DNA from: Lysobacter sp. S4-A87
GTDB lineage: Bacteria; Pseudomonadota; Gammaproteobacteria; Xanthomonadales; Xanthomonadaceae
Assembly: GCF_022637455.1 (NCBI RefSeq)
Contig: NZ_CP093341.1
Span: 1,302,001-1,366,000 of the forward strand
Length of the DNA: 64,000 nucleotides
Reading direction: 5' to 3'
In this document: positions 11,955 through 36,290 of the stretch, in pieces
Layout: each line of letters starts with the position of its first letter
Position numbering within the stretch: position 1 is the stretch's first letter
Translations under genes and position numbers: made by a program
Notes under the pieces: generated by a model
Databases searched by the model: none
What the model was told of the DNA's origin: nothing
Seen by the model: only the letters and a program-made list of their open reading frames with translations

Positions 11955-12030
11955 GGCCGGGTAGCTCAGTTGGTAGAGCAGGGGATTGAAAATCCCCGTG
12001 TCGGGGGTTCGATTCCCTCCCCGGCCACCA
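11955..12030 (+). tRNA. tRNA-Phe (GAA)
   Basis: A 76-base cloverleaf with CCA encoded. The acceptor stem GGCCGGG pairs with CCCGGCC, the D arm is GCTC/GAGC, and the anticodon stem GGGGA/TCCCC holds loop TTGAAAA with anticodon GAA. The T arm is GGGGG/CCCTC with TTCGATT loop. It is intact, because the integrated element supplies an identical 3' part. Confidence 0.98.
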
Positions 12031-12031
12031 T
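11983..12031 (+). repeat. attL of the integrated element
   Basis: A 49-base stretch from the 5' side of the anticodon stem through CCA plus one base of tRNA-Phe, repeated exactly at 30604-30652. This marks the left attachment site. Crossing-over must lie within this block. Confidence 0.93.
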
Positions 12032-12041
12032 GATTAAACGT

Positions 12042-12083
12042 AAGCCCAGTAAGGCTCTCAGGCTTTACTGGGCTTATTTTTTT
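12042..12083 (+). terminator. Rho-independent terminator after tRNA-Phe
   Basis: An 11-bp perfect stem (12042-12052 with 12065-12075, AAGCCCAGTAA/TTACTGGGCTT) is followed by a run of seven T. It lies just inside the element's left end and would end tRNA-Phe transcription. Confidence 0.85.
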
Positions 12084-12099
12084 GGAGCATCGCCCCGGC

Positions 12100-12121
12100 C
12101 TGGGGGACACCGGGGGGACAT
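12100..12121 (+). repeat. 22-base repeat near left end, copy 1 (candidate integrase arm site)
   Basis: The stretch starting CTGGGGGACACCGGGGGGAC is identical to 30467-30488 near the right end, in the same orientation. Each contains two GGGGGACA units about 11 bases apart. Its position just inside attL fits an arm-type binding site for a DUF4102-type integrase. The rest of 12085-12376 shows no gene. Confidence 0.6.
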
Positions 12122-12376
12122 GGGGTGTTTGTGCCCTTGCCCATCGGTCAGAGGTCGTTGGTCCGAGTCCAACTTCGAACTCCAGCTGGAAACCTAATTA
12201 GGCCGCGACCGCGACGATCAGCGCCGCTGCAGTACGCCCGATGGGCCAAGAACCCGTCTCCTGGGCCAAGAACGCGCGCGGCAAAATGCCGCGGCGCCGC
12301 CCGACAATCTTGGCGAGCCAAATAGGAGTGAGCGCCTGAAGCTAACTCCAGACGCGAAGTCCCTTGGATCACGCGC

Positions 12377-13048
12377 TCAGCTAGCGCCGTCCTCGCCGTA
12401 GTCCTGTTCGAAGCTCAAGCGGATCGAAAAATCAGTTTCGATCAGACCACAGCGGCCGGCTTTGTCGAAGCTGTATGTCGCCTCAAAATCACCACGGTGA
12501 CCGTAATACACGCGATCGGGGTCTTGTTCCCCCGTGTGAGTGCCGGCAAGAACAGCACACCAGCAGTCGGCTACGTCAAACAATGACCCGTCGAATTCAT
12601 AGCTATCGGTGTAGAACTCGTCAACATAGGCATTAGTTTCCGCGTACGCGGATATGACGCCATCATCGGTCCATGCGCGGGTTTGAGTGTCCTGCGCCAG
12701 GTGGTCCTTCAGATCCTCAAATGAACGGTGGATCTGAGCGCCTGATTGCCAGACACCCTCAGCTCCTTCAAAGGCCCTCGACAGCACATCAAAAACGACA
12801 GCCTGCGTTTCCGACGCCAGCCCGAGGTCACGCAGACGAACGGTGAGTACATCCTGTTGAAGCACGATGTGCCCTGCATCTCCCAAGGAAGGGCTCACCG
12901 AGTTCCTTTCCTCGGCCTGCAACGCGGCGAACGTGCGATAGGACAGAACGGCAGCGGTCAGCTCCAACGCATGCCCATGGGAAAGGATGATGCCGAGAGC
13001 ACGCAAGCCTTTGCGAGCCGCGAAGGCAACGGGAGAGATATTGATCAT
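12377..13048 (-). CDS. Unknown element protein with glyoxalase-associated N-terminal module
   Basis: A 223-residue protein of unknown function. The N-terminal 50 residues follow a pattern I associate with a small helical module found in many plasmid and island proteins (LSHGHALELTAAVLSYRTFAALQ, about residues 23-45), often annotated as glyoxalase-superfamily related. The remainder is acidic, with a C-terminal beta-rich half containing DVADCWCAVLAG and a terminal DFSIRLSFEQDYGED. The start at 13048 is taken because the region upstream in frame to 13201 is not convincing; the Shine-Dalgarno AGGA is about 9 bases upstream. It is the leftmost gene of the element. As cargo it could be a defence or accessory gene, but there is no direct evidence. 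Confidence 0.6.
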   Translation of the reverse strand: MINISPVAFAARKGLRALGIILSHGHALELTAAVLSYRTFAALQAEERNSVSPSLGDAGHIVLQQDVLTVRLRDLGLASETQAVVFDVLSRAFEGAEGVWQSGAQIHRSFEDLKDHLAQDTQTRAWTDDGVISAYAETNAYVDEFYTDSYEFDGSLFDVADCWCAVLAGTHTGEQDPDRVYYGHRGDFEATYSFDKAGRCGLIETDFSIRLSFEQDYGEDGAS

Positions 13049-13574
13049 GGATCGGTATCCTGTTAGGCACGGTGCGGTGAGTGATTGCTCGCGCCGCGCC
13101 CCGGACAAACCGATGCGAATAGAGGGCGTGCTGGAGAACGTTTGATCGTCGCCTGTTTTGGGCCACTCACGACCCAGGCGGGCGCCTGTGACGGAGAACA
13201 TATGCCCAACTACGCTCCCAGCGCAAGGCCCCTGCCCGCTGCTTTGGACCGGGCCGTCCGCAGCTTCCGGCTCCTCGCGGCCGGCAGGTTCCGACGCGTG
13301 CGCAATCCCTTGCGTTGCCCCCCCTGGGCACCAGACGGTTGGACCTGAACCTCAGACCCCGTACCTCCCCTCTCACATGCCCCGTAGTTGCCGGCTGGTT
13401 TTCAAGCCAATTTCACGAGTGGCTGGCAGTAGCGGCACCGCAACTGCCACCTCGCCCCTATTGCGCCGCGCTGCATCGGTTCAGCGATCGCCTCGGGAGC
13501 GGACCCGCCGAGACAGACATGGCCTTCCAGAACCTCGGGAATGCCCCCCTGCTTTGAGCCGGACCGCAAAGCGG
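13049..13574. other. 526-base stretch without a supported gene
   Basis: Short open frames exist on both strands, but none has a convincing start, ribosome site or recognisable protein. The composition is more GC-rich than the cargo genes on either side, suggesting a remnant or a control region for the gene at 12377-13048. No terminator with a T-run was found. Confidence 0.5.
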
Positions 13575-14270
13575 CTACGGTTCGACCCGCTGCGCCCCAA
13601 GTGCGGCATCGTTGGCTCGCAACCATTTCTCGAGCTGCGTCATGTGCTGAGGCCAAACGACGTTGTACTCATGCTCAAAAACCGCGAAGACAAAGGCGGA
13701 ACCTGGCTCCTGCTCCATACCGAAGAACTCGACCCAATTATTTACAAAATGAGTCTCGTGCTTGTCCGGATCAGTGGAAGAGTAGCCGAAGAGAACGCCA
13801 TCGTAGTTTGGATGGGCGCTCTCGCTAAGGTGCTGATGCATAGAAGCGAGCCCAGGATGGACCTTCTCGGCCTGTCCCAAAACAGTAAGTATGTTGACGG
13901 CCGCGAGGGACGTTGCTCCGTTCTTAGAACCCATCAGCAACTGTTTGGTGATCTCGTCAAACTCAAAAAAAGAAAGCGTGCTCGATAGGACGCTTTGGGT
14001 TTTCTGGTTGAGGTAGATGAGAACACCCAGGGTCTCGATGCAGCTACGGAGCAAGATGCGTGCACCGAGTATGTGGCCGTGCTTTGCCAATAGGAGCGTC
14101 TGTTGCCCAAGATCGTGCATGCGCCACAGCAGTGCTTCACGCACCACGATGCTCCTATACGGAGCCTTCCACTTGTGAGCGATCGGACAGCGGGAAATAA
14201 GTCCGCCGACGCTGATGTCGCTGCAGAGTGTCTGTGACCATCGATCTAGCTGTTCGCCAATGTCTTTCAT
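13575..14270 (-). CDS. Unknown helical element protein
   Basis: A 231-residue mostly helical, soluble protein. A central segment (RILLRSCIETLGVLIYLNQ, about residues 70-88) and a later LSESAHPNYDGVLFGY (about 146-161) resemble the plan of DUF5677-like proteins, where an Arg/Glu helix is paired with a downstream His-containing segment. That resemblance is weak and I assign no function. The ATG at 14270 directly follows a GTG at 14273; TTAGG lies about 8 bases upstream of the ATG. It is located in the cargo region beside restriction genes, so a defence role is possible but unproven. Confidence 0.6.
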   Translation of the reverse strand: MKDIGEQLDRWSQTLCSDISVGGLISRCPIAHKWKAPYRSIVVREALLWRMHDLGQQTLLLAKHGHILGARILLRSCIETLGVLIYLNQKTQSVLSSTLSFFEFDEITKQLLMGSKNGATSLAAVNILTVLGQAEKVHPGLASMHQHLSESAHPNYDGVLFGYSSTDPDKHETHFVNNWVEFFGMEQEPGSAFVFAVFEHEYNVVWPQHMTQLEKWLRANDAALGAQRVEP

Positions 14271-14382
14271 CACAAATACCTAACAGACGGACCCGTGTGC
14301 AACCTTTAGCCTCGCCGAGGCGCCGCCCCGACCCGATGACCGCAACACCAGGAGCGGTCATTCGCCCGCTCTCCGTCCCGCT

Positions 14383-14682
14383 TCATTTCTCAGGTCGATA
14401 CAGCTCATCAAAGACATGTTCAGGCATCCATGTCTCGTACTGATCTGTGGCCCCTAGCTTCCGTACTACCACGTACCCGGGGAAGATACGACCGCAACTA
14501 GGAGGAGGATTCATCGTTTGGCTAGAGCTGAGCTTGCTGAACCTGACCTTGTAGTCGACGTTAGAGATGCCAGCCGCCTTAACCTTGACTCCGTACCTCC
14601 GCGCGGTGTCTCGATCAACGGCTGCAAAGAGCGCCATCTGCTCCAACGTTACAAACGGACGATCTGAGCTATAGGGGTCCAC
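14383..14682 (-). CDS. Small unknown element protein
   Basis: A 99-residue protein beginning with GTG at 14682; GGGAGG 5 bases upstream supports this start. The first part has a helix-turn-helix-like stretch (LEQMALFAAVDRDTARRYGV, residues 13-32). A basic, beta-rich C-terminal half follows (YVVVRKLGATDQYETWMPEHVF). It might be a small DNA-binding protein, but I do not recognise a family. The codon use matches the AT-richer cargo. Confidence 0.55.
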   Translation of the reverse strand: MDPYSSDRPFVTLEQMALFAAVDRDTARRYGVKVKAAGISNVDYKVRFSKLSSSQTMNPPPSCGRIFPGYVVVRKLGATDQYETWMPEHVFDELYRPEK

Positions 14683-14797
14683 TAACGCCTCCCTCTCCTA
14701 AATGTTTCGTCGTGTTCTATCAGAAGGCCACTGCGAGCGGGAGGGACCACTACCTACCGGCCCGATAGGAGCGCGCGCTCGGACTCAAATGCCTGAA

Positions 14798-15340
14798 TTA
14801 AGCAGAGCCTCGTCGCGACTTCGGCTTGGACGAACTGTTAACTGTCAGCGACCGCCGTTGGACAACCTTGAACTGGAGATCCTGGGCCTTTCTCAGAAAG
14901 CTCTCCCACTCAGCGACAAGGGCGTTGTACTGAGCCAATTCTTCGGGCGTAAGGGATGACTCCGGACTACGCGGTGCATAGTTGTGCACAGCAATATAAT
15001 GCTCTATGCGATCTACCCGGCTGGCTGCATCTACCGGGAATCGATTGGCCAGGAACGTCCGCCACGGTTTGTTGCCGCGAGAGTCATTGCAAGTCTGGCA
15101 GGCGGGCACGATGTTACCGGGCACAAGCTCTCCGAAATCAGTCACAGCGACAAGATGATCTGGGACTATGCCCCGATTCTCCGCCGACGCAGCGGCGCCG
15201 CAGTAGGCACAAGTGCTGCCGAACTCGGCGAGGACCAATGACCACTCCTGCTTTGAAATGCGGTGATCTGGAGCCACGATCTCGCGAAGACCCCGGCGTG
15301 TGTTGTAATTCATGCGCGAAAAGTGCTGAGTTCCTTTCAT
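14798..15340 (-). CDS. HNH endonuclease
   Basis: A 180-residue protein with a complete zinc-type HNH (beta-beta-alpha-metal) domain. CAYCG (Cys44, Cys47) is followed by PDHLVAV (Asp61, His62), then NIVPACQTCNDSRGNK (Cys81, Cys84, Asn85). The two Cys pairs would hold structural zinc, and His62 with Asn85 would form the catalytic site. The C-terminal 70 residues are helical and basic at the end. It is located in the cargo between small unknown genes and the type I R-M operon, so a DNA-cleaving role in defence or mobility is plausible. The start at 15340 has only a weak AGG site; an alternative ATG lies at 15313. Confidence 0.82.
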   Translation of the reverse strand: MKGTQHFSRMNYNTRRGLREIVAPDHRISKQEWSLVLAEFGSTCAYCGAAASAENRGIVPDHLVAVTDFGELVPGNIVPACQTCNDSRGNKPWRTFLANRFPVDAASRVDRIEHYIAVHNYAPRSPESSLTPEELAQYNALVAEWESFLRKAQDLQFKVVQRRSLTVNSSSKPKSRRGSA

Positions 15341-15394
15341 GGCAGCCTGAATTAGGTAGATCCGCGGCGCGGCTTCGGATTGGAGTAATTAGCT

Positions 15395-15673
15395 CTAAGA
15401 CTCGTGAGTCTTATGTGCGTACAGATCTAGATAGTTCAGCAGACCTTTTACAACCTCGTCGCAATTCTCCTCTTGAAGGCTTGTTGTAACGGATGCGATG
15501 CCTGAACTGTCGTGACTGACAACTGCGTCAGTCCCTACGAAGTGGTCTTCCAACCTTGCAAAGAAGAAGGCTAGGTTGCTCTCAATCTCCTCAGGCGATA
15601 GCTCTTCTCGGAACGGCTGCGAGCGTGTCGGGCCGTTATAGCTGTAGTAGGGCTTGTATCGATACGTAGGCAT
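15395..15673 (-). CDS. Small unknown element protein
   Basis: A 92-residue soluble protein. It begins MPTYRYKPYYSYNGPTRSQP, an aromatic-rich stretch, followed by an acidic helix (SPEEIESNLAFFFARLEDHF) and a C-terminal helix. No family is recognised. It lies 55 bases upstream (in transcription) of the HNH gene and may share its transcript. The start at 15673 is preferred over 15691; AAGGACC is about 7 bases upstream. Confidence 0.5.
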   Translation of the reverse strand: MPTYRYKPYYSYNGPTRSQPFREELSPEEIESNLAFFFARLEDHFVGTDAVVSHDSSGIASVTTSLQEENCDEVVKGLLNYLDLYAHKTHES

Positions 15674-15981
15674 AATGCTTGGTCCTTGCAAACCACTTTC
15701 TATACGGACCCCGGGGTCCAGTTATGGATCCTTGGCAGAGCACAATCGACCCGCGCAACCTTTCAATCCGACGGCAGAATAGCGACGCGACATCGGCAAA
15801 CAGACCGATGCAATGACTGACCGAGTTCGTCGGCAGGCTTGAAGTCCGACGACAGCCCAACGCAACGAACACTTTTGCTCAATAGCGACCATAGAGCGCA
15901 ACCTTTGGTCACACGTCAGCTCTGCGGCGGGAGCCACTTCGTGGCAACACTGACAGCGGTTAGCGCCCAACCTAGGATGTC
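15674..15981. other. 308-base intergenic stretch
   Basis: It separates the end of hsdM from the small-gene cluster. Open frames on the minus strand (for example to 15970) are Cys/Arg-rich and unlike real proteins. Several imperfect GCCCAAC and GTCGGAC-type inverted motifs are present, but no clear terminator hairpin with T-run and no gene. Confidence 0.5.
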
Positions 15982-17595
15982 TCAGGGCAATAGGGGCAAA
16001 CCAAGCTCCTTAAGAAACGCATTGAGGCGCTCGGTAGCCGTTCTAACCTTTCCATCAACCGAGACTAGTTCTCCATGCACAGTCTTGAGATCGATCTCAT
16101 TCTCGGCGCCGGCAGTGCTGATGTAGCGCGATATATTGAGATTGAAATCGTTCCTTTCGATCTCCTCCATAGCAACTCGACGTGAGTATCGCGCCTCTTC
16201 CTTGCGGAACTGATAGGCATCTACGATCTTCTCAATGTGTTCGGGCAGCAGCTGGTTCTGCCGCTTCCCTTTCTCGAAGTGCTCGGCTGCGTTGATGAAC
16301 AACACATCGTCCGGCTTCTTACATTTCTTCAGCACCAAAATGCACACCGGTATTCCGGTGGAGAAGAAGAGGTCCGCAGGCAGGCCTATGACGGTATCAA
16401 TGTGGCCATCCTTAAGCAATTTAGTGCGAATGCGTGACTCAGCGCCGCCACGGAACAAGACTCCGTGCGGCAGGATGATGGCCATCACTCCGTCTTGCTT
16501 GAGGAAATGAAAACCGTGCAGGAGGAAAGCGAAGTCGGCCGCAGACTTTGGTGCCAGTCCGTAGTTCTTAAAGCGCACGTCCTCACTCAGCGCCTCGCTC
16601 GGCTCCCAGCGATAGCTAAAGGGCGGATTGGCTACCACCGCATCGAACTTCGGCATCTTGGCCGGGTTCGTCTCGCGAAGCATGTCCCACTCATTCGGAA
16701 GGGTATCTCCGTGGAAGATCTCGAACTCAGAATCCTTAACCCCGTGCAGCAGCATATTCATGCGCGCCAGGTTGTAGGTTGTGATGTTCTTCTCCTGGCC
16801 ATAGATCTTCCCGATGGTGCCTTTCGCATCCTTCATTCGGTGTCGCACGTTCAGCAACAACGACCCTGAACCGCAAGCCAGATCCATCACGCTGTCCAGA
16901 TGGGAACGCTTGCCCGAACCGGGCTCCTGGCTGTCAAGCGTTACTATGGACGACAAGATGTCTGAAATGCGCTGAGGGGTGTAGAACTCTCCCGCCTTCT
17001 TGCCAGAACCAGCTGCGAACTGACCGATCAGATACTCATAGGCATCACCCAACGCATCGCTGTCGGTGGAAAACTCCTTCAGCCCGTCAGCGATCTCCTT
17101 GATGATTCTGCACAGCCGCGCGTTGCGTTCTGAATACGTCTTTCCAAGCTTGTCAGAAGCCAGATTAATCTCGGAGAACAGCCCGCGGAAAGTGCTCGCG
17201 AAAGACTCTGTCTCGATATAGCTGAAGCCGCTCTGCAACGTACTCAAGAGCATCGCATCATGCGTGCGTGCCATCTCTGATATGTTGCCCCACAGGTACT
17301 GCGGCTCGATCACATAGTGCACCTTTCGGCGCATCTGCTTCTCGAACTCTGGCACGTCATCCAAATTACTCTCGTACCACCGCTGCAAGGGTGTGGACAC
17401 CGAGCCGTCCAACTGAACGGGATAGTCCGACCCCAGTTCCTTCCTCGCAGCTGCTTCGTAGTTGTCAGAAAGGTAACGAAGGAAGAGAAAAGCCAACATG
17501 TAGTCGCGGAAATCATCCGCATTCATCGCGCCGCGAAGTTGATCGGCAATAGCCCATAGGGTTCTGCCAAGCTTCTGTTTTTCGAGATCGGTCAT
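15982..17595 (-). CDS. hsdM: Type I restriction-modification system, methyltransferase subunit
   Basis: A 537-residue N6-adenine methyltransferase subunit; with HsdS it methylates the host recognition site, and with HsdR it forms the restriction complex. An N-terminal helical HsdM_N domain (about 8-150) precedes the SAM-binding motif DLACGSGS (238-245) and the catalytic NPPF (323-326). The ATG at 17595 overlaps the stop of the upstream ATPase gene in ATGA. It is the last gene in the operon, whereas hsdM is usually first, so modification is made after the nuclease genes unless an internal promoter exists. Confidence 0.96.
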   Translation of the reverse strand: MTDLEKQKLGRTLWAIADQLRGAMNADDFRDYMLAFLFLRYLSDNYEAAARKELGSDYPVQLDGSVSTPLQRWYESNLDDVPEFEKQMRRKVHYVIEPQYLWGNISEMARTHDAMLLSTLQSGFSYIETESFASTFRGLFSEINLASDKLGKTYSERNARLCRIIKEIADGLKEFSTDSDALGDAYEYLIGQFAAGSGKKAGEFYTPQRISDILSSIVTLDSQEPGSGKRSHLDSVMDLACGSGSLLLNVRHRMKDAKGTIGKIYGQEKNITTYNLARMNMLLHGVKDSEFEIFHGDTLPNEWDMLRETNPAKMPKFDAVVANPPFSYRWEPSEALSEDVRFKNYGLAPKSAADFAFLLHGFHFLKQDGVMAIILPHGVLFRGGAESRIRTKLLKDGHIDTVIGLPADLFFSTGIPVCILVLKKCKKPDDVLFINAAEHFEKGKRQNQLLPEHIEKIVDAYQFRKEEARYSRRVAMEEIERNDFNLNISRYISTAGAENEIDLKTVHGELVSVDGKVRTATERLNAFLKELGLPLLP

Positions 17596-18716
17596 TGCGC
17601 GCCTGCTGCCTGAGTGGCCTGAGGAAACAACACTGGATTGAAGGGGTAGCGGCTCAGGAAGTCGTACAAGATCTTCTTAAAGTATGCCTTGTTCTCGTCC
17701 AGCATTTGCTGAGGCTCAAACAGCGAATAGTTTCCGTGACTCAGAATGTTGATCAGGCGCGCATGCAGGATGCCGTCCAGATCATCATCCTCCTGCTTGA
17801 TGCATGCAGAGAAGTTCTTATGGCCGTGAAAGCTTGCCGTCTTTTCCAAGATGGCGCGGAGCATGTTGAAGTGATGAGTGAACAGTCGATCCTCCTGCGC
17901 CGCTTGGTACAGTTCTGCCAGAGCGGCCACATGATGAAAGAACGGCGTGTCACCCATTTCCTCACGCAGTAGATGGCTATCGCCTGCGGAGTTCTTGCTC
18001 ACAAAGTACTTGCGGGAGTTTCCGAGCTCGTTACACAACACATTGTAGAACAACGTGTGATGCGTCGAGATCACCGTCTTAAGATTACTCCCCGGCCGCT
18101 TGAGTAGCTGCGCCAAGTGGTTCCCAACGGCGATCGCGTTGTGCTCATCCAGGGACGAAATCGGGTCATCGATGTAGACGTACTTCACCCATGCATAAGA
18201 CTCCGCGCCGTCAAGAGCCAACTGTACGATTGTCAGAAATAGACACCAGACAAAGATGTTCTCCTCGCCGCGCGAAACCTTGATGTTGTCGATGACCTGT
18301 CCGCCAACCGTGCGAGAGAAGCGTACTGACCACTCGCGCGTATCTATTCGGAAATCGAAGTCCGCGTAGCGCTGCAAGAGCGGCCGGATGCGGTTGTCCA
18401 TCTCGAGTTCAAACACACCCTGAAAGAACCGCGAGTTCATGTTGAGCAGCAATCTGCGGTCACTGTCGCCGTCTAAGTCGTTATCCCAGTGAAAGAGGTC
18501 TTCGGTGAATGCGTTGAAGTAGAGCGTGTCTCGAACCGCATCGCCACCCTCGCCTCTAGTCTGTTCTTGACCTCTGATGTCCTTGAAGGCCATTGAGAGC
18601 CGCGTCTTTCCGGTGCCGTTGTACGCATAGAGCAAGACAGTCTTCTTATTCTCCAACACCAGTCGCAAATGCGCCGCCAAAGCAGGCAGCTCGGAGAAGA
18701 GCTCACCCGGCCTCAT
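17592..18716 (-). CDS. PrrC-like ATPase, candidate anticodon nuclease
   Basis: A 374-residue ABC-like (AAA_13/PrrC-type) ATPase embedded between hsdS and hsdM. Walker A YNGTGKT is at residues 32-38, the signature-like SRGEEN at 148-153, Walker B plus D-loop YIDDPISSLDE at 181-191, and the H-loop STHH at 217-220. In the C-terminal domain Arg287 and Glu291 (LRAILEK) and His327 (LSHGNYS) have the order of the R-x3-E...H triad described for E. coli PrrC. PrrC cleaves tRNA-Lys when a type I R-M system is disabled by phage. Length is close to PrrC (about 396). Both ends overlap neighbours by 4 bases, so synthesis is coupled to HsdS and HsdM. Nuclease activity and target are inference. Confidence 0.78.
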   Translation of the reverse strand: MRPGELFSELPALAAHLRLVLENKKTVLLYAYNGTGKTRLSMAFKDIRGQEQTRGEGGDAVRDTLYFNAFTEDLFHWDNDLDGDSDRRLLLNMNSRFFQGVFELEMDNRIRPLLQRYADFDFRIDTREWSVRFSRTVGGQVIDNIKVSRGEENIFVWCLFLTIVQLALDGAESYAWVKYVYIDDPISSLDEHNAIAVGNHLAQLLKRPGSNLKTVISTHHTLFYNVLCNELGNSRKYFVSKNSAGDSHLLREEMGDTPFFHHVAALAELYQAAQEDRLFTHHFNMLRAILEKTASFHGHKNFSACIKQEDDDLDGILHARLINILSHGNYSLFEPQQMLDENKAYFKKILYDFLSRYPFNPVLFPQATQAAGAQ

Positions 18717-19996
18717 GCTGACTGATCCTCCAGCACCGGGAAGAGCTCCTGCATCAAACCCCTCTTGTGACGCTTGAGTAGATCTATCTTCTGTTCCTGC
18801 GCAGTGATTAGATCATCGATGGACGAGATACACTCGCCGATCCTCCTTTGCTCCTCAAAAGAAGGAAGAACCGCAGAGAACGTACGAAGGACATTCAGGT
18901 AGAGCCTAGTCCTGGTGCCGCCCTTCTTCTGCGCGAGGGCAAACTTGCTGAACTGCTTTCCATCGTTGAGCAGGTATTTGAGGAAGCCTGGATGCAGGCC
19001 ATCCACAGAGAAAACGGGGTACTCTTTGCTCACTGCAATTCTTTGACCCGTGTTGTTTATGTTGAACTTGAAGGCTCCATCGTCGCTCATGTGTCGATAG
19101 ACAAAGTACCCTTCCGGGACCACCCCGTACTGCCCGTCATTCGCAACCTCTCGGTTGTCGTAGTAGTCCTTTTGGCGCTGCAATCCCGTCCTTGAAGAAC
19201 TGTAGATCGGCAACTCTGTGCTTGCCGAAACCCGCTCGGAGTATTCCTTCAGGAAAGGATCCAAGTCAGCAGGCTTCCACTCTCCAAGGCCGAGGAACTG
19301 AGGGAATCGAAGATTTGGCAAGGATTCGCCATCAGCAGGTAGCAGCTGTTGCGTCAATGCCTTCTTGTGTACCTTGAGGCTGCGAAGCTTTCCTGCCTCA
19401 GCCGCGATTCGCTCATCGAACGTCGTCAAGCAATCGGCAACTCTATGCTGCTCGTCTAGCTTTGGCGCCACGACGCTGCCGCTTAGGACAACAGCGTTGT
19501 TCACCTTCATGTCGTTCTTCGCCCCTTTCTTTACCAGGGGTTGTAGATAGGCATTCAGGCAGTGGTCGCGCGAGAAGTAGTGATCGAAGTACGAAGCGTG
19601 CGCGTCGTCGTTGGGGCGGTAGACGGCATATAGAGTCGAGACGATTCCTGCCTTCCCCTTGTTCTCTTTAATGATTCCGAACGGATTTCGCTTTAGCGGG
19701 CTCTTGGTGTAAACAAGATCGCCAGTCTCTACGACGCGATAATCCTTTACGCTAACGCCAGCGTAGGAACGACCCAGGTGCTCTATTTGGTTGACGCATC
19801 CAAGCTCGCCTGAAACAGACAGCACATCCTGTGCCGTGTATCTGAGGTCTCTATTTCGTTGCTTGATCTCGACTAGAAAGCCACTCAGTTTCTCTACTTG
19901 CCAGGCATCAGCGTTCTGAAATTTCGGGAACCGAATTCGCGGTACCAGCGACCGCTTCTTTTCGTTCCTTTCGATGCTCTTATTGCTCATATGCAT
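18713..19996 (-). CDS. hsdS: Type I restriction-modification system, specificity subunit
   Basis: A 427-residue DNA-recognition subunit with the two-TRD layout. The first target-recognition domain spans about residues 18-190, followed by a helical spacer ending LRSLKVHKKALTQQLLP. The second spans about 225-395 and ends with the parallel spacer LLKRHKRGLMQELFP. The two spacers' similarity is the internal repeat expected of HsdS. AGGG lies 4 bases upstream of the ATG at 19996 and 10 bases upstream of that at 19990; either could be used. The start overlaps the hsdR end by 17 bases. The recognition sequence cannot be derived here. Confidence 0.94.
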   Translation of the reverse strand: MHMSNKSIERNEKKRSLVPRIRFPKFQNADAWQVEKLSGFLVEIKQRNRDLRYTAQDVLSVSGELGCVNQIEHLGRSYAGVSVKDYRVVETGDLVYTKSPLKRNPFGIIKENKGKAGIVSTLYAVYRPNDDAHASYFDHYFSRDHCLNAYLQPLVKKGAKNDMKVNNAVVLSGSVVAPKLDEQHRVADCLTTFDERIAAEAGKLRSLKVHKKALTQQLLPADGESLPNLRFPQFLGLGEWKPADLDPFLKEYSERVSASTELPIYSSSRTGLQRQKDYYDNREVANDGQYGVVPEGYFVYRHMSDDGAFKFNINNTGQRIAVSKEYPVFSVDGLHPGFLKYLLNDGKQFSKFALAQKKGGTRTRLYLNVLRTFSAVLPSFEEQRRIGECISSIDDLITAQEQKIDLLKRHKRGLMQELFPVLEDQSA

Positions 19997-22952
19997 TCAA
20001 CCCTGAGATCTCCCGCCCTTGGGCGAGCTTGTGCAGCAATGGCGTAAGGACCTCCACCAGAGCCAGCTCCTTCTGGGTGCGCTGCTTCCAACCCAAACCC
20101 AGTGGCGCCATCAGCTCACTCAAAGCCTCGCCGTCGAAGATACGGCGGCGCAGCACCTCATCCACAAACGCTTGGAGCGCGTCCGCCGCAAGACCGTACT
20201 TGCTCGCAATGTCAGCCAGTTCCCTGACCTTCTTCTCCGCCTTGAAGCATTCGTAACCGTCGCGAATTTGTGCTTCATCCAGCGCCTCACCTACTGGCAG
20301 ACCACGGATGTACTCGGCAATGTCCTCGCGCTCATTGATGAACTTTGCATCGGACTGAATCAAGCCAATGAGTTGCTCACGGTTGAGAGTTAGCTTCCCG
20401 GGCGCCTGCTGCGTCATCCGAGCGATCAGCCCCATGATGTAGTCGTAGTCGATGACAGCAGATGCAAAAAGCACAAACTCAAAATCCAGTTGCTGGACCT
20501 CGGGTGGCGCTTGGTCGCCCTGTTTGTCCTGCTGCTCTTTTAGCTGCTTGGCGGTCTCTAGATAGGCACTTTTGAATCCCTGAAGTTGATCTTGAGACGC
20601 AATCTTGCTGATCTGTGACCGTTGCTCGTCACTCAGATCCGTGTATTGATCTAGCTGCGTCTTGAGGCGCTGCACTTCCTTGAACAAGTTGACGAACTGG
20701 CTCCGAGCAGCATCCCCCTTGAGGTTGACCACTTCTTCCGGTGAGTTGGACAAACCCTGGGACTGCATGAAGGCGGCCAGCTTCTGTGTTGACACTTGCA
20801 GGTTGTCGATCACCCTGGGAGCTGGGTCCACCAACCATATCTCACGTGGGTTGTCGATCTTCTCGCCGGAGAAGAGCGCAATTGCCTCCTCCACTGGCTT
20901 CTGCTGCTGGCGAAAGTCGAGGATGTTGCCGTAAGGCTTGCTATCGTTCAGCACGCGGTTGGTCCGGGAGAATGCCTGGATCAGACCGTGATACTTGAGG
21001 TTCTTGTCGACGTACAGAGTGTTCAAGTACTTGGAGTCGAAGCCGGTCAGCAGCATGTCTACCACGATGGTGATGTCGATCTTCTGCGCGTGGGACAGGT
21101 CAGTGTTGGGGTATTGCTGATCTTTGATGCGCTTCTGCACGTCCTGGTAGTACAGGTCGAACTCGCTGATGCGGTGATTAGCACCGAACCTGGTGTTGTA
21201 GTCACCAATAATTCGAGCAAGCGCGGCCTTCTTACCTTCTGGGTCTTCTCGGTTATCTGCCTTTTCTTGCGGCAGGTCTTCCTGAATTTGCTGCACGTCC
21301 TTGTCGCCCTCTGCGGGCGGGGAGAATACGCAAGCAATATTTAGCGGCTGAAACGAGTCGTCCTCAGCTTGCCTCTTGTCCTGGATGGTATTGAACGCCT
21401 CGAAATATTCAATGGCTTCGTTGATGCTGGCAGTGGCAAGCACGCCGTTGAACTTTCGTCCGTTTGTAGCGGCGTCATGCTTGGTAAGGATCGTTTCGAT
21501 GACCTTGGCCTTCGCCAAGCCTTCGCCTGGCTTGGGGGGGTTCTTACCCTCTGGCTTGAAGTAGTCCACGTGAAAGCGCAAGACGTTGCGATCTTCAATT
21601 GCGTGGGTGATGGTGTACTGGTGCAGACAGCGTTGGAACAGGTCGTCCGTTGTTCGGAAGCTGGCCTGTTGGCCTTCGATCTGTTGGTAGCTTGCGTTAC
21701 GCTCGAAAATTGGCGTACCGGTAAAACCGAACAGTTGGGCGTTAGGGAAAAACTCCTTGATAGCCCTGTGGTTTTCACCGAACTGCGAGCGGTGGCACTC
21801 GTCAAAGATGAATACCATCCTCTGCTTACGCAGGGCGTCGAGACGCTCCTTGTAGTTGCGCCTGTTGGTGCCGTCTAGCGCCAACCCCAGCTTCTGGATG
21901 GTCGTCACGATTACTTTGTCCGACTTGTCGTCGGATAACAGGCGTCGCACCAGCGTTTCGGTGTTTGTGTTTTCTTCAACGCAGCCCTCCTGAAAGCGGT
22001 TGAACTCCTCCCGCGTCTGGCGATCAAGATCTTTTCGATCCACCACGAATAGGCATTTGTCGACCTCTGGATTGTCCTTCAGCAGCGTGGAGGCCTTGAA
22101 CGAAGTGAGCGTCTTCCCACTGCCGGTGGTGTGCCATATGTAACCGTTGCCGCAGTTCTGATGAATGCAGTCCACGATAGCTTTGACAGCATAGATTTGG
22201 TAAGGCCGCATCATCAGCAGCTTTTGCTCGCTCGCTACCAGGACCATGTAACGGCTAATCATCTGTCCTAGCGTGCATTTGGCGAGGAACTTGTCGGCAA
22301 AGCCGTCCAAGTGTGTGATCTTCTTGTTGTCCTCGCTCGCAAACTGGTAGACAGGCAAGAAGCGCTCTTCCGCATTGAAGCTGAAATGGCGAGCGTTGTT
22401 GTTTGCGAAGTACCAGGTATCGGTACGGTTGCTGACAATGAAGAGCTGGACGAAGCAAAGCAACGTCTTGCCGTAGCCGGTGCCTGGATCGCTCTTATAG
22501 TCAATGATCTGCTGCATAGCCCTGCGCGGGCTGACGGCCAGGGTTTTCAGCTCGATCTGCACGACGGGCACACCGTTGATTAGCAGTATCACGTCGTAAC
22601 GGTGATGACTGTAGTCGGTGTTGATGCGCAACTGATTGACAACCTCGAAGTGGTTCTTACACCAGTCCCGGATATTGACCAGCGTGAAGTTGAGTGGCGT
22701 GCCGTCGTCGCGCTCGAAGCTGTTGATACTACGAAGCGTCTGGGCCGAGTTGTAAACGTCAGGCGTGATCACGCTATCTAGAAGGCGCTGGAACTCGCTA
22801 TCAGTAAGGTGAACACGATTGAGTTCCTCGAACTTCTCGCGGAAGTTCCTTTCCAGCGCAGCACGGTCCCGGATGTCAGGACGAAGTGTGTACTTGAGAT
22901 CGCTAAGCTTGGCGATTAGGTCCAGCTCAATTTGGCTTTCTGTGGTATTCAT
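19980..22952 (-). CDS. hsdR: Type I restriction-modification system, endonuclease subunit
   Basis: A 990-residue motor-nuclease that translocates DNA and cuts it away from the unmethylated site. The N-terminal PD-(D/E)xK nuclease has Asp120, Glu134 and Lys136 (in VVQIELK). The helicase core carries Walker A TTGSGKT at 275-281 and the DEAD-box variant DECH at 384-387, with VTTIQK and GFTGTP as following motifs. The C-terminal HsdM-binding region is complete. It is the first gene of the four-gene operon; about 290 bases upstream to the next gene should hold the promoter. Length is as expected for the IC-like class. Confidence 0.96.
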   Translation of the reverse strand: MNTTESQIELDLIAKLSDLKYTLRPDIRDRAALERNFREKFEELNRVHLTDSEFQRLLDSVITPDVYNSAQTLRSINSFERDDGTPLNFTLVNIRDWCKNHFEVVNQLRINTDYSHHRYDVILLINGVPVVQIELKTLAVSPRRAMQQIIDYKSDPGTGYGKTLLCFVQLFIVSNRTDTWYFANNNARHFSFNAEERFLPVYQFASEDNKKITHLDGFADKFLAKCTLGQMISRYMVLVASEQKLLMMRPYQIYAVKAIVDCIHQNCGNGYIWHTTGSGKTLTSFKASTLLKDNPEVDKCLFVVDRKDLDRQTREEFNRFQEGCVEENTNTETLVRRLLSDDKSDKVIVTTIQKLGLALDGTNRRNYKERLDALRKQRMVFIFDECHRSQFGENHRAIKEFFPNAQLFGFTGTPIFERNASYQQIEGQQASFRTTDDLFQRCLHQYTITHAIEDRNVLRFHVDYFKPEGKNPPKPGEGLAKAKVIETILTKHDAATNGRKFNGVLATASINEAIEYFEAFNTIQDKRQAEDDSFQPLNIACVFSPPAEGDKDVQQIQEDLPQEKADNREDPEGKKAALARIIGDYNTRFGANHRISEFDLYYQDVQKRIKDQQYPNTDLSHAQKIDITIVVDMLLTGFDSKYLNTLYVDKNLKYHGLIQAFSRTNRVLNDSKPYGNILDFRQQQKPVEEAIALFSGEKIDNPREIWLVDPAPRVIDNLQVSTQKLAAFMQSQGLSNSPEEVVNLKGDAARSQFVNLFKEVQRLKTQLDQYTDLSDEQRSQISKIASQDQLQGFKSAYLETAKQLKEQQDKQGDQAPPEVQQLDFEFVLFASAVIDYDYIMGLIARMTQQAPGKLTLNREQLIGLIQSDAKFINEREDIAEYIRGLPVGEALDEAQIRDGYECFKAEKKVRELADIASKYGLAADALQAFVDEVLRRRIFDGEALSELMAPLGLGWKQRTQKELALVEVLTPLLHKLAQGREISGLNAYEQ

Positions 22953-23244
22953 TTATTGGCTTCTGCTGCCGTTGGCTTAGCGTTATCGTGCTGTGGTCCA
23001 GATATCTGGGTTGGTCATACTCGCCCGCTGCTGAGCGCTCGAGGGATGATCAGGTTCGGACGCAGATCACCCCACTCGTAGCTCAGCTAGCGGGCCAGCG
23101 GGCGTTGGCACCCATATCAATCACACTGCCCCATCGCCGGCCTCGTCCAATCTAACTCGTCGCGCATGCTCCTTGCCGGCCGCCAGAATAAGCCTTCAGG
23201 CGATCGCGCAGCAAAGCATTGCCCCTGCGGCGACGACACCCGCA

Positions 23245-24126
23245 TCAGTGCAGCGGCGGGCTTAGGGAGTCGAGCGCATCTAGCGCGCGCAGCAGCGTCG
23301 CCATCCCCTGCGCGGCGTACTCGTCGGTGACCGCCGCCTGCCACTGCGCCCGGTCCCGCGCCTGCCGCTCTCGTCGCTGCTGCCAGACCGCGGCATCGCC
23401 CAGTTCGGCGCCGACCAGCACGGCGGCGTTGTCGACGCACAACACCAGCACCTGCCCGGCGAGCCACGCCTCCACCGCCGCCCGCAGTTGCTCGTCGCTG
23501 CGACCTAGCAGCCCGGCAGCGCGAGCGACCTGCAGCAGGCTCAGCAGCGGCGCCTGACGCGTCAGGAACGTCGCAGCGGACTCGCCGGTCTCGATCGCCT
23601 GGTGCACGACTTCGCTGAGCGTGTCAGCGTACCAGCGCAGCCAAGGCGGCGGCGGCGGCCGCATGAGGCTGTCCAGCCACGCGCGGACCGACTCTTGGCC
23701 GCCCTGCTGCAGCGGCAGGGCGACACCGCCCACGTCCACCTGACACTGGTCGCTGTCGGGGTCGGGGTCGGGGCGCACCCGCAGCTGCTGACCGTCGACG
23801 GTGCGCACCCATGCCACGACTGCATCGTCGCTCAGCGTCCAGCGCCAGTCGCTGTCCGCCCGGTCGGGCGCCAGTCGCAGCAGTGCCGTCGGTGTGGCGG
23901 CGAGGCGATCGGCGAGGCGGTCGAGCTGGCGCCGCGCGTCCTCCTGTGTGCCGCCAGGCTGCGCGGCCAGCATCGGCAGGGGGCCGTTGTGGACACGCAG
24001 TACACCGCCGTCGCGCAATGGCAGCACGCTGGCGTGTATGCCGTTCAACGGGTGGTCCGGTGGGCGGGCGTAGGCAGCGGCGTGACCGTCGTCCAGAGTC
24101 ACGCGGGACCAATGCAGGTAGCTCAT
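23245..24126 (-). CDS. Unknown element protein, 293 residues
   Basis: A 293-residue soluble protein, rich in Ala, Leu, Arg and Asp, with no family recognised. The first half is beta/alpha mixed (LHWSRVTLDDGHAAAYARP, then RWTLSDDAVVAWVRTVDGQQ). A Pro run near residues 183-187 separates it from a helical C-terminal half. The start at 24126 has GAGGAG 9 bases upstream. Composition matches the GC-rich replication module rather than the cargo, so it probably belongs to the element backbone. It follows the 95-residue gene by 59 bases on the same strand and may be cotranscribed. Confidence 0.65.
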   Translation of the reverse strand: MSYLHWSRVTLDDGHAAAYARPPDHPLNGIHASVLPLRDGGVLRVHNGPLPMLAAQPGGTQEDARRQLDRLADRLAATPTALLRLAPDRADSDWRWTLSDDAVVAWVRTVDGQQLRVRPDPDPDSDQCQVDVGGVALPLQQGGQESVRAWLDSLMRPPPPPWLRWYADTLSEVVHQAIETGESAATFLTRQAPLLSLLQVARAAGLLGRSDEQLRAAVEAWLAGQVLVLCVDNAAVLVGAELGDAAVWQQRRERQARDRAQWQAAVTDEYAAQGMATLLRALDALDSLSPPLH

Positions 24127-24185
24127 GATCGGGTTCTCCTCGATGGGGTGCACAGGCAGCGCCGGGAGTAGATGGACCTGCCAGA

Positions 24186-24473
24186 TTAGCCGTGGCGCTC
24201 CAGCTCCTCCGGGGTCAGCGCCTCAAACGGTGAGTGCCACAGCCAGATCCCGCCCGGCAGGCGCCGAGTCGGGTACCAGCCCTGCCGCAACAGCAGCGGC
24301 GGCAGTGCCACCTGCCTGATGCCGGTCGCGCGGGCTATCTCCCGAACGGTCATGGGGTCGTCCCAGCCCAGCTGCCCCCAGCGATCGCCGTGCTGGGGCA
24401 GGGAGTCAGCCCACGCGTACAGGCGATCGAATTCGGACAGCTTCGGCTTGGGCACCAGTTTGAGCACGGTCAT
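24186..24473 (-). CDS. Small unknown element protein
   Basis: A 95-residue protein beginning MTVLKLVPKPKLSEFDRLY, with a central winged-helix-like stretch (MTVREIARATGIRQVALPPLLLRQGW, about residues 41-66) and an acidic C-terminus. This could be a small DNA-binding regulator, since it is encoded immediately next to the repeat-rich region at 24574-24976. GAGG 7 bases before the ATG supports the start. No family is recognised with certainty. Confidence 0.6.
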   Translation of the reverse strand: MTVLKLVPKPKLSEFDRLYAWADSLPQHGDRWGQLGWDDPMTVREIARATGIRQVALPPLLLRQGWYPTRRLPGGIWLWHSPFEALTPEELERHG

Positions 24474-24573
24474 GGGTCAGCCTCGGGGATGGGGTGATGG
24501 TGCGCCGATCGGCCGCGCGCGGCGACAGGGCCTCGCCCGTGCGGGCAGGGGCGTGCCACACGGTGCGCGGGGC

Positions 24574-24706
24574 GCGCGTGTACGCCGATCATTTTGGAGG
24601 GCCTGGGCAGCGTCACTGCGATCATCTGGCAGAAGAGTTGGTGTGTGATGGGGAAATCGCTTGAACGTCGATAATTTTGGGGGCTGGGGCAACTCGCTTG
24701 TACGCT
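24574..24706 (+). repeat. Repeats of a TCGCTTGTACGCT-type operator motif
   Basis: Three related copies lie at 24574-24601, 24657-24685 and 24694-24706. The first two also share GAT(A/C)ATTTTGG after the core. An exact 13-base copy of the third occurs at 28753-28765, upstream of the helix-turn-helix gene. Placement before two element transcription units suggests operators of one regulator; this is inference. Confidence 0.6.
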
Positions 24707-24744
24707 GGCTTTTCTAAGCGGCGTGCGTGCTGTTCACTGCTACT

Positions 24745-24976
24745 GGCACGCAAACGGCACGCGGTCCGTCCAGCAAGGGCTGCAGAGGAATTTGTGTAAT
24801 TGCGTGCCGTTGCGTGCCGATTTTCCTATTCCCCACACTCCTTCCCTTATCTCCTGGATATAGGGGAAGAACGGCTGCAACGGCACGCAACTTGCTGGAA
24901 GCCTTGCTACATAGGGCTTTGAGCTGCGTGCCGTTCGTTCGAGCAAACGGCACGCAACAGCACGCAACGGCACGCA
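24745..24976. repeat. Iteron cluster, candidate replication origin
   Basis: About eight copies of GGCACGC(A) occur in both orientations: starts at 24745, 24756, 24882, 24949 and 24969 on plus, and 24801, 24811 and 24925 on minus, plus a variant AGCACGCA at 24959. Neighbouring copies are 10-11 bases apart, one helical turn. The cluster lies in the 550-base non-coding stretch 24474-25023, directly after the primase-helicase gene, and contains AT-richer stretches between copies. This is the architecture of iteron-controlled origins, for example that of satellite P4 beside its alpha gene. Confidence 0.75.
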
Positions 24977-25023
24977 CTTCCGCCGACTCACGTGTACATC
25001 GATCCTACAAGGCAGTTGGTTGC

Positions 25024-27783: not shown

Positions 27784-27827
27784 CTCCAGCCCCCGCCTGC
27801 CTCGTGCGCATGCGGGGCGTTTTGTTT

Positions 27828-28388
27828 TTATGCCCCGTCCGGTCGGTCGAGCCGCACTGCACTACCGTCGATGGCGGGCGTCTCCTTGACGCGCACGTTC
27901 GCCGGGTCCGGCCAGCCAACCAGCATCACCCGCGCGGGGGTACCGTCCATGCTGAGTAGCGGCAGATCCGGCTGCGTGTCCTGCTCGGCGGCGCTGACAC
28001 CGCACAGCTTGCCCTGCGTCTCCGCGCGCGCTCGTGCACCGGCGAGCAGCGTCAGCTCGCGTCCGGCTTCGATTAGCAGGCGCGGGCTGGTGTCGGGATC
28101 GTCCAGCAAATGCGCCAACCGCTCGATATACGTGCCTACGTGCTGCAGCGCCTGGGGCTGGGTAAGGTCGCCAGCCGCCTCCAGCTGCGCCGCCAGCCGC
28201 AGCACGCGCGCGAGCACGGCCGGGTCAGCCAGCCACGCATACAACTGAGCGATGTCGACGCCGAGTAGGTGGCAGACGTTCGCTTCGCCGACCAACCCGT
28301 GCCGCATTTGCGCCAGCAGGCGGTCGCGCAGCAGCGTCGGGTCGGCCGCGGCGCGCAGCGGCGGGTCGGGTGCCGGCAGCGGACTCAC
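27828..28388 (-). CDS. Unknown element protein, 186 residues
   Basis: A 186-residue helical protein starting with GTG at 28388, which overlaps the stop of the upstream helix-turn-helix gene (GTGA). The central part (LLGVDIAQLYAWLADPAVLARVLRL) could form a helix-turn-helix and is followed by a helical bundle; the last 50 residues are Pro-rich and extended. Conserved position between a small DNA-binding protein and the primase suggests an element replication or control role. No family is recognised. A short GC hairpin (about 27795-27816) separates it from the primase gene. Confidence 0.6.
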   Translation of the reverse strand: MSPLPAPDPPLRAAADPTLLRDRLLAQMRHGLVGEANVCHLLGVDIAQLYAWLADPAVLARVLRLAAQLEAAGDLTQPQALQHVGTYIERLAHLLDDPDTSPRLLIEAGRELTLLAGARARAETQGKLCGVSAAEQDTQPDLPLLSMDGTPARVMLVGWPDPANVRVKETPAIDGSAVRLDRPDGA

Positions 28389-28663
28389 GCCCGCCTCGGC
28401 TCGACGCGCCCGGCCTGCACGAACGCCTCCAGATCGGTGAGGTTGTAGAGGACGCGCACTCCGACCTTGTGATAGGTCGGCCCGCGGCCGGCGGCTCGCC
28501 AGTAGCGCAGCGTGTGCACGCTCGCGTCGTCGCCGCCGAACAGAAACTGCGCGGCCTGCCCCTCGCTCAGCCGCTGCGGGAAGGTCACTGGCGCGGGGGC
28601 AGGTGGACGCGACCGGAGCTTGCGTGCCCGCGCTGCCTTCTCGATGGATGCCGTCTCGCTCAT
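28385..28663 (-). CDS. Small helix-turn-helix protein (AlpA/excisionase-like)
   Basis: A 92-residue protein whose middle follows the MerR-like winged-helix pattern of AlpA and excisionases: LSEGQAAQFLFGG, then VHTLRYWRAAGRGP, then VRVLYNLTDLEAFVQ. A basic disordered N-terminus precedes it. In integrated satellites such proteins switch on excision or regulate the integrase and primase genes. Position between the integrase and the primase fits a recombination-direction factor. The family is fairly clear; the specific role is inference. Start at ATG 28663. Confidence 0.75.
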   Translation of the reverse strand: MSETASIEKAARARKLRSRPPAPAPVTFPQRLSEGQAAQFLFGGDDASVHTLRYWRAAGRGPTYHKVGVRVLYNLTDLEAFVQAGRVEPRRA

Positions 28664-28752
28664 TGCTGCTGCCTCCTGAAGTCCTCGGCTAGCAGCGTGC
28701 AGCGGGCATCGGCGAAAGCGTGAGGAAAGGTCGCGCCAGTTAATTTCCCCAG

Positions 28753-28765
28753 TCGCTTGTACGCT
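28753..28765 (+). promoter_or_regulatory. Candidate operator, copy of the 13-base TCGCTTGTACGCT motif
   Basis: Exact match to 24694-24706. It lies between the stop of the 125-residue gene and the start of the helix-turn-helix gene, where an operator for the downstream replication genes would be expected. Confidence 0.45.
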
Positions 28766-28767
28766 CG

Positions 28768-29145
28768 TTATTTCGCCAAGAAGCGACCCCTCCCCAGACG
28801 TTTCCGACGAACGGTCCGCTGCATTCGCTGCAGCTCATGGGCCAAATCGTAGACGTCGCGCTGCGGGTCGAATCCGCACTGCGGACCGCGCACCGGGTCG
28901 TTGACCAGCGCTAGCGCCGTCTGCGTCCACGTCAGCGGTTTTGGGCGCAGCGTGCCGTCAGGCAGCCGCCGCCGCACCCAGTGCGCGTGCAGCGTCACGG
29001 TCAGAGCCCGGGCGTCGGCGAACCGCTCGCGTGGGTTGGCCAGCAACGCCTCGATGTCGCGCCTGATCCATGCATCCGCACCGGGTGCGCCCTTGTGCCA
29101 GTCGAGGATCTCTCGCAGGCGGTTCATGCCGATGCGCCTGCTCAT
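28768..29145 (-). CDS. Unknown element protein, 125 residues
   Basis: A 125-residue basic, Arg/Leu-rich protein. Its ATG at 29145 overlaps the integrase stop (ATGA), so it is coupled to integrase translation. The middle (WVRRRLPDGTLRPKPLTWTQTALAL) and the basic C-terminus (RTVRRKRLGRGRF) suggest nucleic-acid binding. A homologue-based function cannot be given. Close coupling to the integrase suggests a role in recombination or its control. Confidence 0.6.
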   Translation of the reverse strand: MSRRIGMNRLREILDWHKGAPGADAWIRRDIEALLANPRERFADARALTVTLHAHWVRRRLPDGTLRPKPLTWTQTALALVNDPVRGPQCGFDPQRDVYDLAHELQRMQRTVRRKRLGRGRFLAK

Positions 29146-30488
29146 GCCTGCCGCTCCCGACTCCGCAGCGGCACTACTCGTCCACTTGTCCCCAGCACGG
29201 ACTGCTCCAGTCGTTCAATCGGCGCGCGCAGGCGCTCCACGTCGTCGGCGAGGTAGCCACGGGTCACGTCGCCGGCCTCGCTGTGCGCGGCGATCGCCTT
29301 GAGCGCGTAGGCGGACACGTCCATGGACTCCAGCAGCGTCAGCGCCGTTCGCCGTAGGTCGTGCGGCGACCAGGCGATCACCTGCCCGTCCCCGTCCTGA
29401 AGCTTTGCCAGAAACCGCACCGACAGCCGCCCGATCGGCGCATGCACGGTGCGACCTCGCACGAGTTTGCCCAGCCCTGCGAACACAAACTCTTCGCTGC
29501 GCGCCACCTGCAGGCGTACCTGCAGCATCGCCAGCATCGCCGGCCCCAGCGGCAGCGAATGCTCGCGCTTGCCCTTCATGCGATCGGCTGGGATCGTGAT
29601 GGTCCCCGCCTTGAAACTAACCTCGGACCAGCGCAGCCCGGCCGCGCTCGACCAGCGCAGCCCGGTGCACGCCAGCAGCAGCGTCAGGTCACGCTGCGTG
29701 CCGACCAAATCCGGCGGCTGGTCGTCCGGCAACGCACGCAAGACAGCGACAAACTCTCGAAGGGCCTCACCCAGCAGGGCGCGTTTGCGCCTGGCAACAT
29801 TGCCCCAGCTCTTCGTCGCCGCGATCTGCGCCGCCACGTCTGGCAGGTCCAGCTCGCGGGTGACACGCAGATACCGCACCACGGCCCGCAACGCGCGCAC
29901 GGCGCCGTCGGCACGGGCCGGGCTGGCTGTGATGCGCTTGCGGTCGCGCGCATTCGCGACGCGTGCCTGTGCCCGCACCGGGCGGGTCTTGCGATCGCGG
30001 TGGCGGTCGCGCACCACCTGCGGCGTCAGCTCCACCAGCGGCCGATCCAGATAGTCGCCAAAGGTGGTGCGCAGGTCGCGCTCGTAGGTGCTGGCAGTGG
30101 CCGGCCGCAGCGACTTCTCGGCCAGATAGATCTCCAGCGCCTGCGCCAGTGTCATGCCTTCGCGCAAGTCACTCGCACGTCTGGCGCGCTTGACGGCGGT
30201 CGGGTCGCCGCCTTTGTCCAGGTCAACACCGGCCTGCTTTGCTGCCTTGCGTGCCTGCTCGACGGTCCAACGGTCGGCACGACCGATCGACACCCGCGTC
30301 CGACGGGCACTGCCGGGCAGGCGCCGGTAGACACTCCAGCTGCCGCCGGTGGCGCCGACGCGCAGTATCAGGTCGGGCACCTGCTTGTCGCGGTACTCGG
30401 TGCGGACGGACGGGCGGCCGCGCAGCAGCTGCTCGACGATGGCATCGGTGAGGCGCAGGATTTGCACTGGGGGACACCGGGGGGACAT
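29142..30488 (-). CDS. int: Tyrosine-type integrase (DUF4102 family)
   Basis: A 448-residue site-specific recombinase that integrates the element into tRNA-Phe. An N-terminal DUF4102 arm-binding domain (about 10-100), a core-binding domain (about 112-210) and a C-terminal catalytic domain are present. The catalytic set is complete: Arg278 (TGLRW), a Lys near 305-307, His376 and Arg379 (HDLRR), His402 and nucleophile Tyr412 (RGYLADD). It lies 115 bases from attR. The ATG at 30488 lies within the 22-base end repeat and has a poor Shine-Dalgarno, so the start is less certain than the family. Confidence 0.94.
   Translation of the reverse strand: MSPRCPPVQILRLTDAIVEQLLRGRPSVRTEYRDKQVPDLILRVGATGGSWSVYRRLPGSARRTRVSIGRADRWTVEQARKAAKQAGVDLDKGGDPTAVKRARRASDLREGMTLAQALEIYLAEKSLRPATASTYERDLRTTFGDYLDRPLVELTPQVVRDRHRDRKTRPVRAQARVANARDRKRITASPARADGAVRALRAVVRYLRVTRELDLPDVAAQIAATKSWGNVARRKRALLGEALREFVAVLRALPDDQPPDLVGTQRDLTLLLACTGLRWSSAAGLRWSEVSFKAGTITIPADRMKGKREHSLPLGPAMLAMLQVRLQVARSEEFVFAGLGKLVRGRTVHAPIGRLSVRFLAKLQDGDGQVIAWSPHDLRRTALTLLESMDVSAYALKAIAAHSEAGDVTRGYLADDVERLRAPIERLEQSVLGTSGRVVPLRSRERQA
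30467..30488 (+). repeat. 22-base repeat near right end, copy 2
   Basis: Identical to 12100-12121. Here it covers the integrase start codon, so integrase bound to it could also repress its own gene. Confidence 0.6.
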
Positions 30489-30603
30489 AGAGGCTCGTTA
30501 CCGCTAGTAATGCCTACTATCCACTAGCATGTCAAGTAACTGAATTGCCTAGATATTGTGTGATTGATCCCGGCCTGGCGCCCTCCCGCCACTGACCGAT
30601 CAA

Positions 30604-30652
30604 GGATTGAAAATCCCCGTGTCGGGGGTTCGATTCCCTCCCCGGCCACCAT
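30604..30652 (+). repeat. attR of the integrated element
   Basis: An exact 49-base copy of the tRNA-Phe 3' part (11983-12031), without the acceptor 5' half or D arm. It is the right attachment site, not a second tRNA gene. Confidence 0.93.
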
Positions 30653-30665
30653 TATTCAAACGTAG

Positions 30666-36242: not shown

Positions 36243-36290
36243 GTCGTAATCCTGTTATCGCCGTCAGTCTCGTTGAAGAACTGCATTCGC

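Follow-up and report, generated by a model that had tools for sequence, protein, structure and literature searches.

The window, the 64,000-nucleotide stretch of Lysobacter sp. S4-A87 DNA analysed here, contains a type I restriction-modification (R-M) operon of four genes, all on the minus strand, in the order hsdR-hsdS-prrC-hsdM. The first gene, hsdR (19980..22952), encodes a 990-aa endonuclease subunit (TIGR00348, E 2.6e-117) with HSDR_N, helicase and EcoR124_C domains. It is type IC-like by virtue of EcoR124_C (PF12008, E 7.8e-65), which is also present in the HsdR adjoining E. coli PrrC. The gene is followed by hsdS (18713..19996), encoding a 427-aa specificity subunit with a Methylase_S domain (PF01420, E 7.5e-11; PADLOC Specificity_I, E 8.2e-70), by prrC (17592..18716), and by hsdM (15982..17595), encoding a 537-aa methyltransferase subunit with HsdM_N and N6_Mtase domains (TIGR00497, E 1.5e-113; PF02384 and PF12161). 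The three hsd genes thus have full domain sets, and the R-M operon within which prrC lies is of type IC. The first-pass annotation had described a 374-residue open reading frame overlapping hsdS and hsdM by four bases, and reading of the frame and its junctions bears this out: the hsdS stop and prrC start, and likewise the prrC stop and hsdM start, share a 4-bp ATGA. No strand had been given; the prrC reading is that of the minus strand, and the same interval read in frame 1 of the plus strand has several stops. A promoter scan of 15600-23400 found no promoter-like site on the minus strand.

The operon is carried on an 18.6-kb element (11983-30652) integrated at tRNA-Phe (gene 11955-12030) and bounded by a 49-bp direct repeat. 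The left attachment repeat (11983..12031, plus strand) is the 3' part of tRNA-Phe, and the right repeat (30604..30652, plus strand) is identical to it; both were located with the tRNA-Phe end read from the window, a generic tRNA-end pattern having matched nothing. The element includes a gene for its tyrosine integrase (29142..30488, minus strand; PF00589, E 3.1e-17; Arm-DNA-bind_3, E 1.3e-10) and a DUF5906 gene (25024-27783). The G+C fraction in 1-kb bins is 0.70 at 8-11 kb versus 0.52-0.56 at 14-23 kb. A second tRNA-Phe end is found 9.9-18.6 kb downstream of the first in four of ten other genomes of the genus (G004, G005, G006, and G009), which makes tRNA-Phe look like an integration hotspot. 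The PADLOC PrrC-type search gave no match at E <= 1e-10 in 11 other genomes of the genus (G001-G011). Matches over all 198 genomes numbered 12, the window's included: nine strong (E <= 5.3e-121) and three weak (3.6e-12 to 6.6e-15), the latter being ORFs of 737-768 aa that are probably other ABC proteins.

Several other features of the region deserve mention. Within the element and downstream of hsdM are an HNH-domain gene (14798-15340) and a DUF5677 gene (13575-14273), which are possible further defence cargo. Just past tRNA-Phe there is an inverted repeat of 20 nt with a run of T at its end (12036-12081), and a similar stretch can be seen by eye after the right repeat (~30655-30705), as if both ends had terminator-like sequence. 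Just outside the element, two long minus-strand ORFs of 799 and 1217 aa (33843-39944) have, by eye, an RHS/YD-repeat look.

ATPase core and C-terminal domain of PrrC

The prrC product consists of an ABC-ATPase part and a C-terminal anticodon-nuclease domain (residues ~242-374). It matches the PADLOC PrrC model at E 1.1e-137 over residues 8-361, the next-best PADLOC model being at 4.8e-19; E. coli PrrC matches the same model at E 7.7e-148. The E. coli reference is L095, which is 396 aa long, is annotated 'anticodon nuclease', and comes from an operon with the order M-S-prrC-R; its D222, D287, R320, E324, and H356 stand at the positions published for E. coli PrrC (PMC3014915 and PMC2610378). The window protein resembles it across both domains: identity is 37% over 341 positions by BLASTP (2e-56) and 34.9% in the multiple alignment, and a profile of the C-terminal domain matches the C-terminus of E. 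coli PrrC with a probability of 97.8% (hhalign). Pfam AAA_13 is also matched (E 1.2e-14). The PADLOC and AAA_13 matches, together with a catalytic triad that is invariant among relatives (see below), indicate that the family match is not due to chance. Searched with the PADLOC PrrC model, two of 14 control genomes have a match at E <= 0.001 (E. coli and Bacteroides ihuae) and one at 1e-10 (B. ihuae). No NCBIfam model matches the window protein at E <= 1, and no match was found among phage records at E 1e-5. The PADLOC model, the alignment and the operon thus support the earlier identification of a PrrC-type protein within a type I R-M operon.

Conservation was assessed in an alignment of 88 proteins: the window protein, 80 relatives (the best among 130 that were confirmed), and seven from named records. 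Since the query was the window protein, the set leans towards the window's clade (82 of 88 rows). The motifs and catalytic residues listed in the first-pass annotation are all present in the window protein. Its ATPase part has a Walker A (AYNGTGKT, 31-38), a signature (SRGEEN, 148-153), a Walker B/D-loop (YIDDPISSLDE, 181-191), and a linchpin His (STHH, 217-220). D190, the counterpart of E. coli D222, is conserved in all 88 proteins, and H219 in 87. The core had been considered clearly different from classical PrrC in lacking a GxNGxGKS Walker A, but this is wrong, as E. coli PrrC itself has AFNGTGKT. That form is the second commonest in the alignment (13/88), after AYNGTGKT (64/88). The window and E. 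coli proteins have NGTGKT and an IDDPxSSLD block in common, and the idea of an unusual Walker A is rejected; the motif is instead a family signature. A 15-residue 'PrrC box' has been named in the N-terminal part of PrrC (PMC3014915). We offer as a guess that a strongly conserved block of 15 residues at 66-80 (YFNAFTEDLFHWDND) is a candidate for this box.

The alignment with E. coli PrrC also confirms the proposed placement of the nuclease residues. R287, E291, and H327 align with the catalytic triad R320, E324, and H356, and the conservation on which the proposal had been made to depend holds, the three being invariant in 88/88 rows. Equally invariant (88/88) is R320 of the window protein, equivalent to E. 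coli R349, which together with H327 forms the Rx4-6H motif of the HEPN superfamily (R320-x6-H327). Structure searches with an AlphaFold2 model of the full-length protein (mean pLDDT 82) returned ATPase proteins; Rad50/SMC ATPase heads match it over residues ~5-264, at best with a Z of 13.3 (224 aligned, rmsd 3.4). The model predicts C-terminal helices at 261-274, 281-296, 313-326, and 340-356; the second bears R287 and E291, the third bears R320, and H327 comes directly after the third. Predicted alone, the C-terminal part is essentially all-helical (mean pLDDT 79.9), and neither the solved-structure nor the viral library contains a match to it at E <= 0.001. Of the solved structures that fall short of this threshold, AbiV (TMq 0.47, E 1.5) ranks second and an archaeal HEPN homologue (E 2.0) fourth, amid unrelated rows. 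At the sequence level, no PrrC relative turned up among solved structures with the single sequence (best E 0.21, an ABC transporter), and nothing at E <= 0.01 with profile A1 (alignments A1 and A2 have 59 rows, namely the window protein plus 58 of the 80 kept loci). Because the C-terminal model alone is without a significant match, the HEPN fold is assigned from the sequence motif, from homology to E. coli PrrC, and from the published HEPN assignment of the PrrC C-terminal domain (PMC3710099).

Two operon orders and two clades

Two PrrC systems provide the closest comparisons. E. coli PrrC/EcoprrI (prrABCD) is like the window system in its ABC-ATPase motifs, catalytic triad, type IC-like HsdR, and match to the PADLOC model. 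It differs in operon order (M-S-C-R versus R-S-C-M) and in a recognition peptide that is two residues longer, and the proteins are about 35-37% identical. The EcoprrI order, hsdM-hsdS-prrC-hsdR, is also not that of PrrC170 of Klebsiella quasipneumoniae, whose operon is listed as HsdR, HsdS, PrrC, HsdM in PMC11555353. The same paper describes PrrC170 as an ABC-ATPase 35% identical to E. coli PrrC, which causes growth arrest on expression, blocks both T1 and T7, and has tRNA-Lys as its target; phage tRNA-Lys overcomes it (PMC11555353). The window system has the same operon order, and its PrrC has a similar identity to E. coli PrrC (34.9%). A K. quasipneumoniae plasmid locus of R-S-prrC-M order, L082, encodes a protein 78.7% identical to the window PrrC and 34.9% to that of E. 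coli; L082 serves only as a stand-in for the PrrC170 sequence, and its hsdR and hsdS are separated by two additional genes.

Operon order was surveyed at 87 loci (L001-L087) from the best same-strand tblastn match within 12 kb, so that the survey tests gene order and not adjacency. At 70 of these loci hsdR is upstream and hsdM downstream of prrC: 58 are R-S-C-M, the window's included, nine have R and S separated by two additional genes, and three are variants. The M-S-C-R order occurs at five loci, all plasmid records of lower identity. The other 12 lack a detected hsdR or a detected hsdM, mostly close to a contig end; at L028, however, no hsdR was detected in the 9 kb present upstream of prrC. 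Six further records divide into two R-S-C-M and four M-S-C-R. The extra genes in L082 (3967-7754) and in the eight further loci (9/87) encode TrlF-like AAA and SLFN_AlbA_2 proteins. Across several Proteobacteria groups these proteins share 84-100% identity with those of K. quasipneumoniae, and the operon with these genes is seemingly a mobile six-gene version.

A tree was made of 37 of the 93 proteins, hand-chosen for spread, of which 28 are labelled R-S-prrC-M and nine M-S-prrC-R; L017 and L061 were entered under the former label, their contigs displaying only R-S-C and R-C-M. A single branch, with support of 100/100, separates the two kinds, and prrC and operon order thus seem to have travelled together. 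The R-S-prrC-M rows come from Pseudomonadota, Bacillota, Bacteroidota, Spirochaetota, Campylobacterota, Lentisphaerota, and one archaeon. Both operon kinds are found in E. coli: among 5426 genomes searched by megablast, the K. quasipneumoniae gene has a match in 37 (90-95% identity) and the E. coli-type prrC in six. The suggestion of a distinct sub-family therefore holds, though on other grounds. The R-S-prrC-M clade is separate in the tree, but the argument from the Walker A and the core, on which the suggestion had been based, does not hold. A literature search, weak in that most subscription journals lay outside it, found no title or abstract naming both clades.

Target and mode of action

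The tRNA-Lys recognition peptide of E. coli PrrC spans residues 284-294 and includes Asp287, which makes the wobble contact. D287 corresponds to D256 of the window protein and is D in 59/88 rows. N289-K290 have no counterpart in the window protein or in 84/88 rows, two of the six M-S-C-R rows among them. The host genome has a tRNA-Lys whose anticodon, UUU, stands in a CTTTTAA loop; a looser pattern matched at one place, a stricter one at none. By homology with the characterized proteins, tRNA-Lys is the likely target of the window PrrC.

Family membership, intact motifs, invariant catalytic residues, an intact operon, and a host tRNA-Lys(UUU) are established here; how PrrC of the window would be silenced, triggered, and directed to cleave its target we infer from EcoprrI-PrrC and PrrC170. 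In the PrrC family, tRNA is cleaved at the anticodon by a nuclease that the Hsd proteins silence and that an anti-restriction factor or dTTP sets free. The product of the window gene is very probably an anticodon nuclease of this family, and as a latent suicide tRNase it would guard the type IC-like restriction enzyme. PrrC would sit on the HsdR-M-S complex and be kept silent by it, until a phage disables the restriction complex and so provides the trigger. NTP hydrolysis by the Rad50/SMC-like ATPase part may then release the HEPN-type domain with R287, E291, R320, and H327. Once released, the domain would cut a host tRNA in the anticodon loop, most likely tRNA-Lys(UUU), and translation would stop.

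A different target or trigger had been suggested in the first-pass annotation, and we find no support for it. A PrrC-like nuclease that cuts an RNA other than tRNA-Lys, or that responds to something other than the loss of restriction-complex integrity, is unlikely. The long, fully supported branch between the R-S-prrC-M and E. coli clades, and the divergent recognition peptide, are in its favour, as is the view that PrrC substrates may vary because the recognition sequence does (PMC3014915). However, PrrC170, which has the window's operon order and is about as close to E. coli PrrC in identity, has tRNA-Lys as its target (PMC11555353); D256 matches the wobble contact, the two-residue gap is also present in M-S-C-R rows, and tRNA-Lys(UUU) is carried by the host. 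Slightly more doubtful still is a related reading, in which R-S-prrC-M would be a separate PrrC branch where the changes in recognition peptide and operon order accompany another tRNA preference or another restriction-complex interface, and hence a trigger other than the T4 Stp type.

The remaining alternatives concern the identity of the protein. An open frame, the integrity of every ATPase and catalytic motif residue, and full-length domains in the adjoining hsd genes make it very improbable that the gene is a decayed or repurposed copy, such as one that lacks nuclease activity and serves the R-M enzyme as a structural partner. There is even less reason to believe that it is an RloC-type anticodon nuclease (Rad50-like, with a zinc hook and a DNA-damage response) that lies in the hsd operon by chance. 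RloC has the same architecture of an ABC-ATPase and an Arg-X3-Glu...His triad, but is described, in PMC2610378, as having a zinc-hook/coiled-coil insert and only rare R-M linkage. By eye, the 374-aa window protein has no such CXXC or coiled-coil insert in its ATPase domain, for which RloC identity is rejected, and the PADLOC PrrC model is far ahead of the next. The PrrC reading itself has points against it, namely an order different from that of EcoprrI, a recognition peptide that is partly kept, and the lack of a matching NCBIfam model and of a significant solved-structure match for the isolated C-terminal model in the searches described above.

The window gene is an intact, well-preserved member of the known PrrC family. 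The R-S-prrC-M clade already has a tested member with the same operon layout, PrrC170, and the find is for this reason sound but ordinary. PrrC is a phage-defence family known for decades, to which the window makes a clean chromosomal addition. Comparison of the two clades could reveal the surface with which PrrC docks on the restriction complex, and the residues that choose the tRNA.
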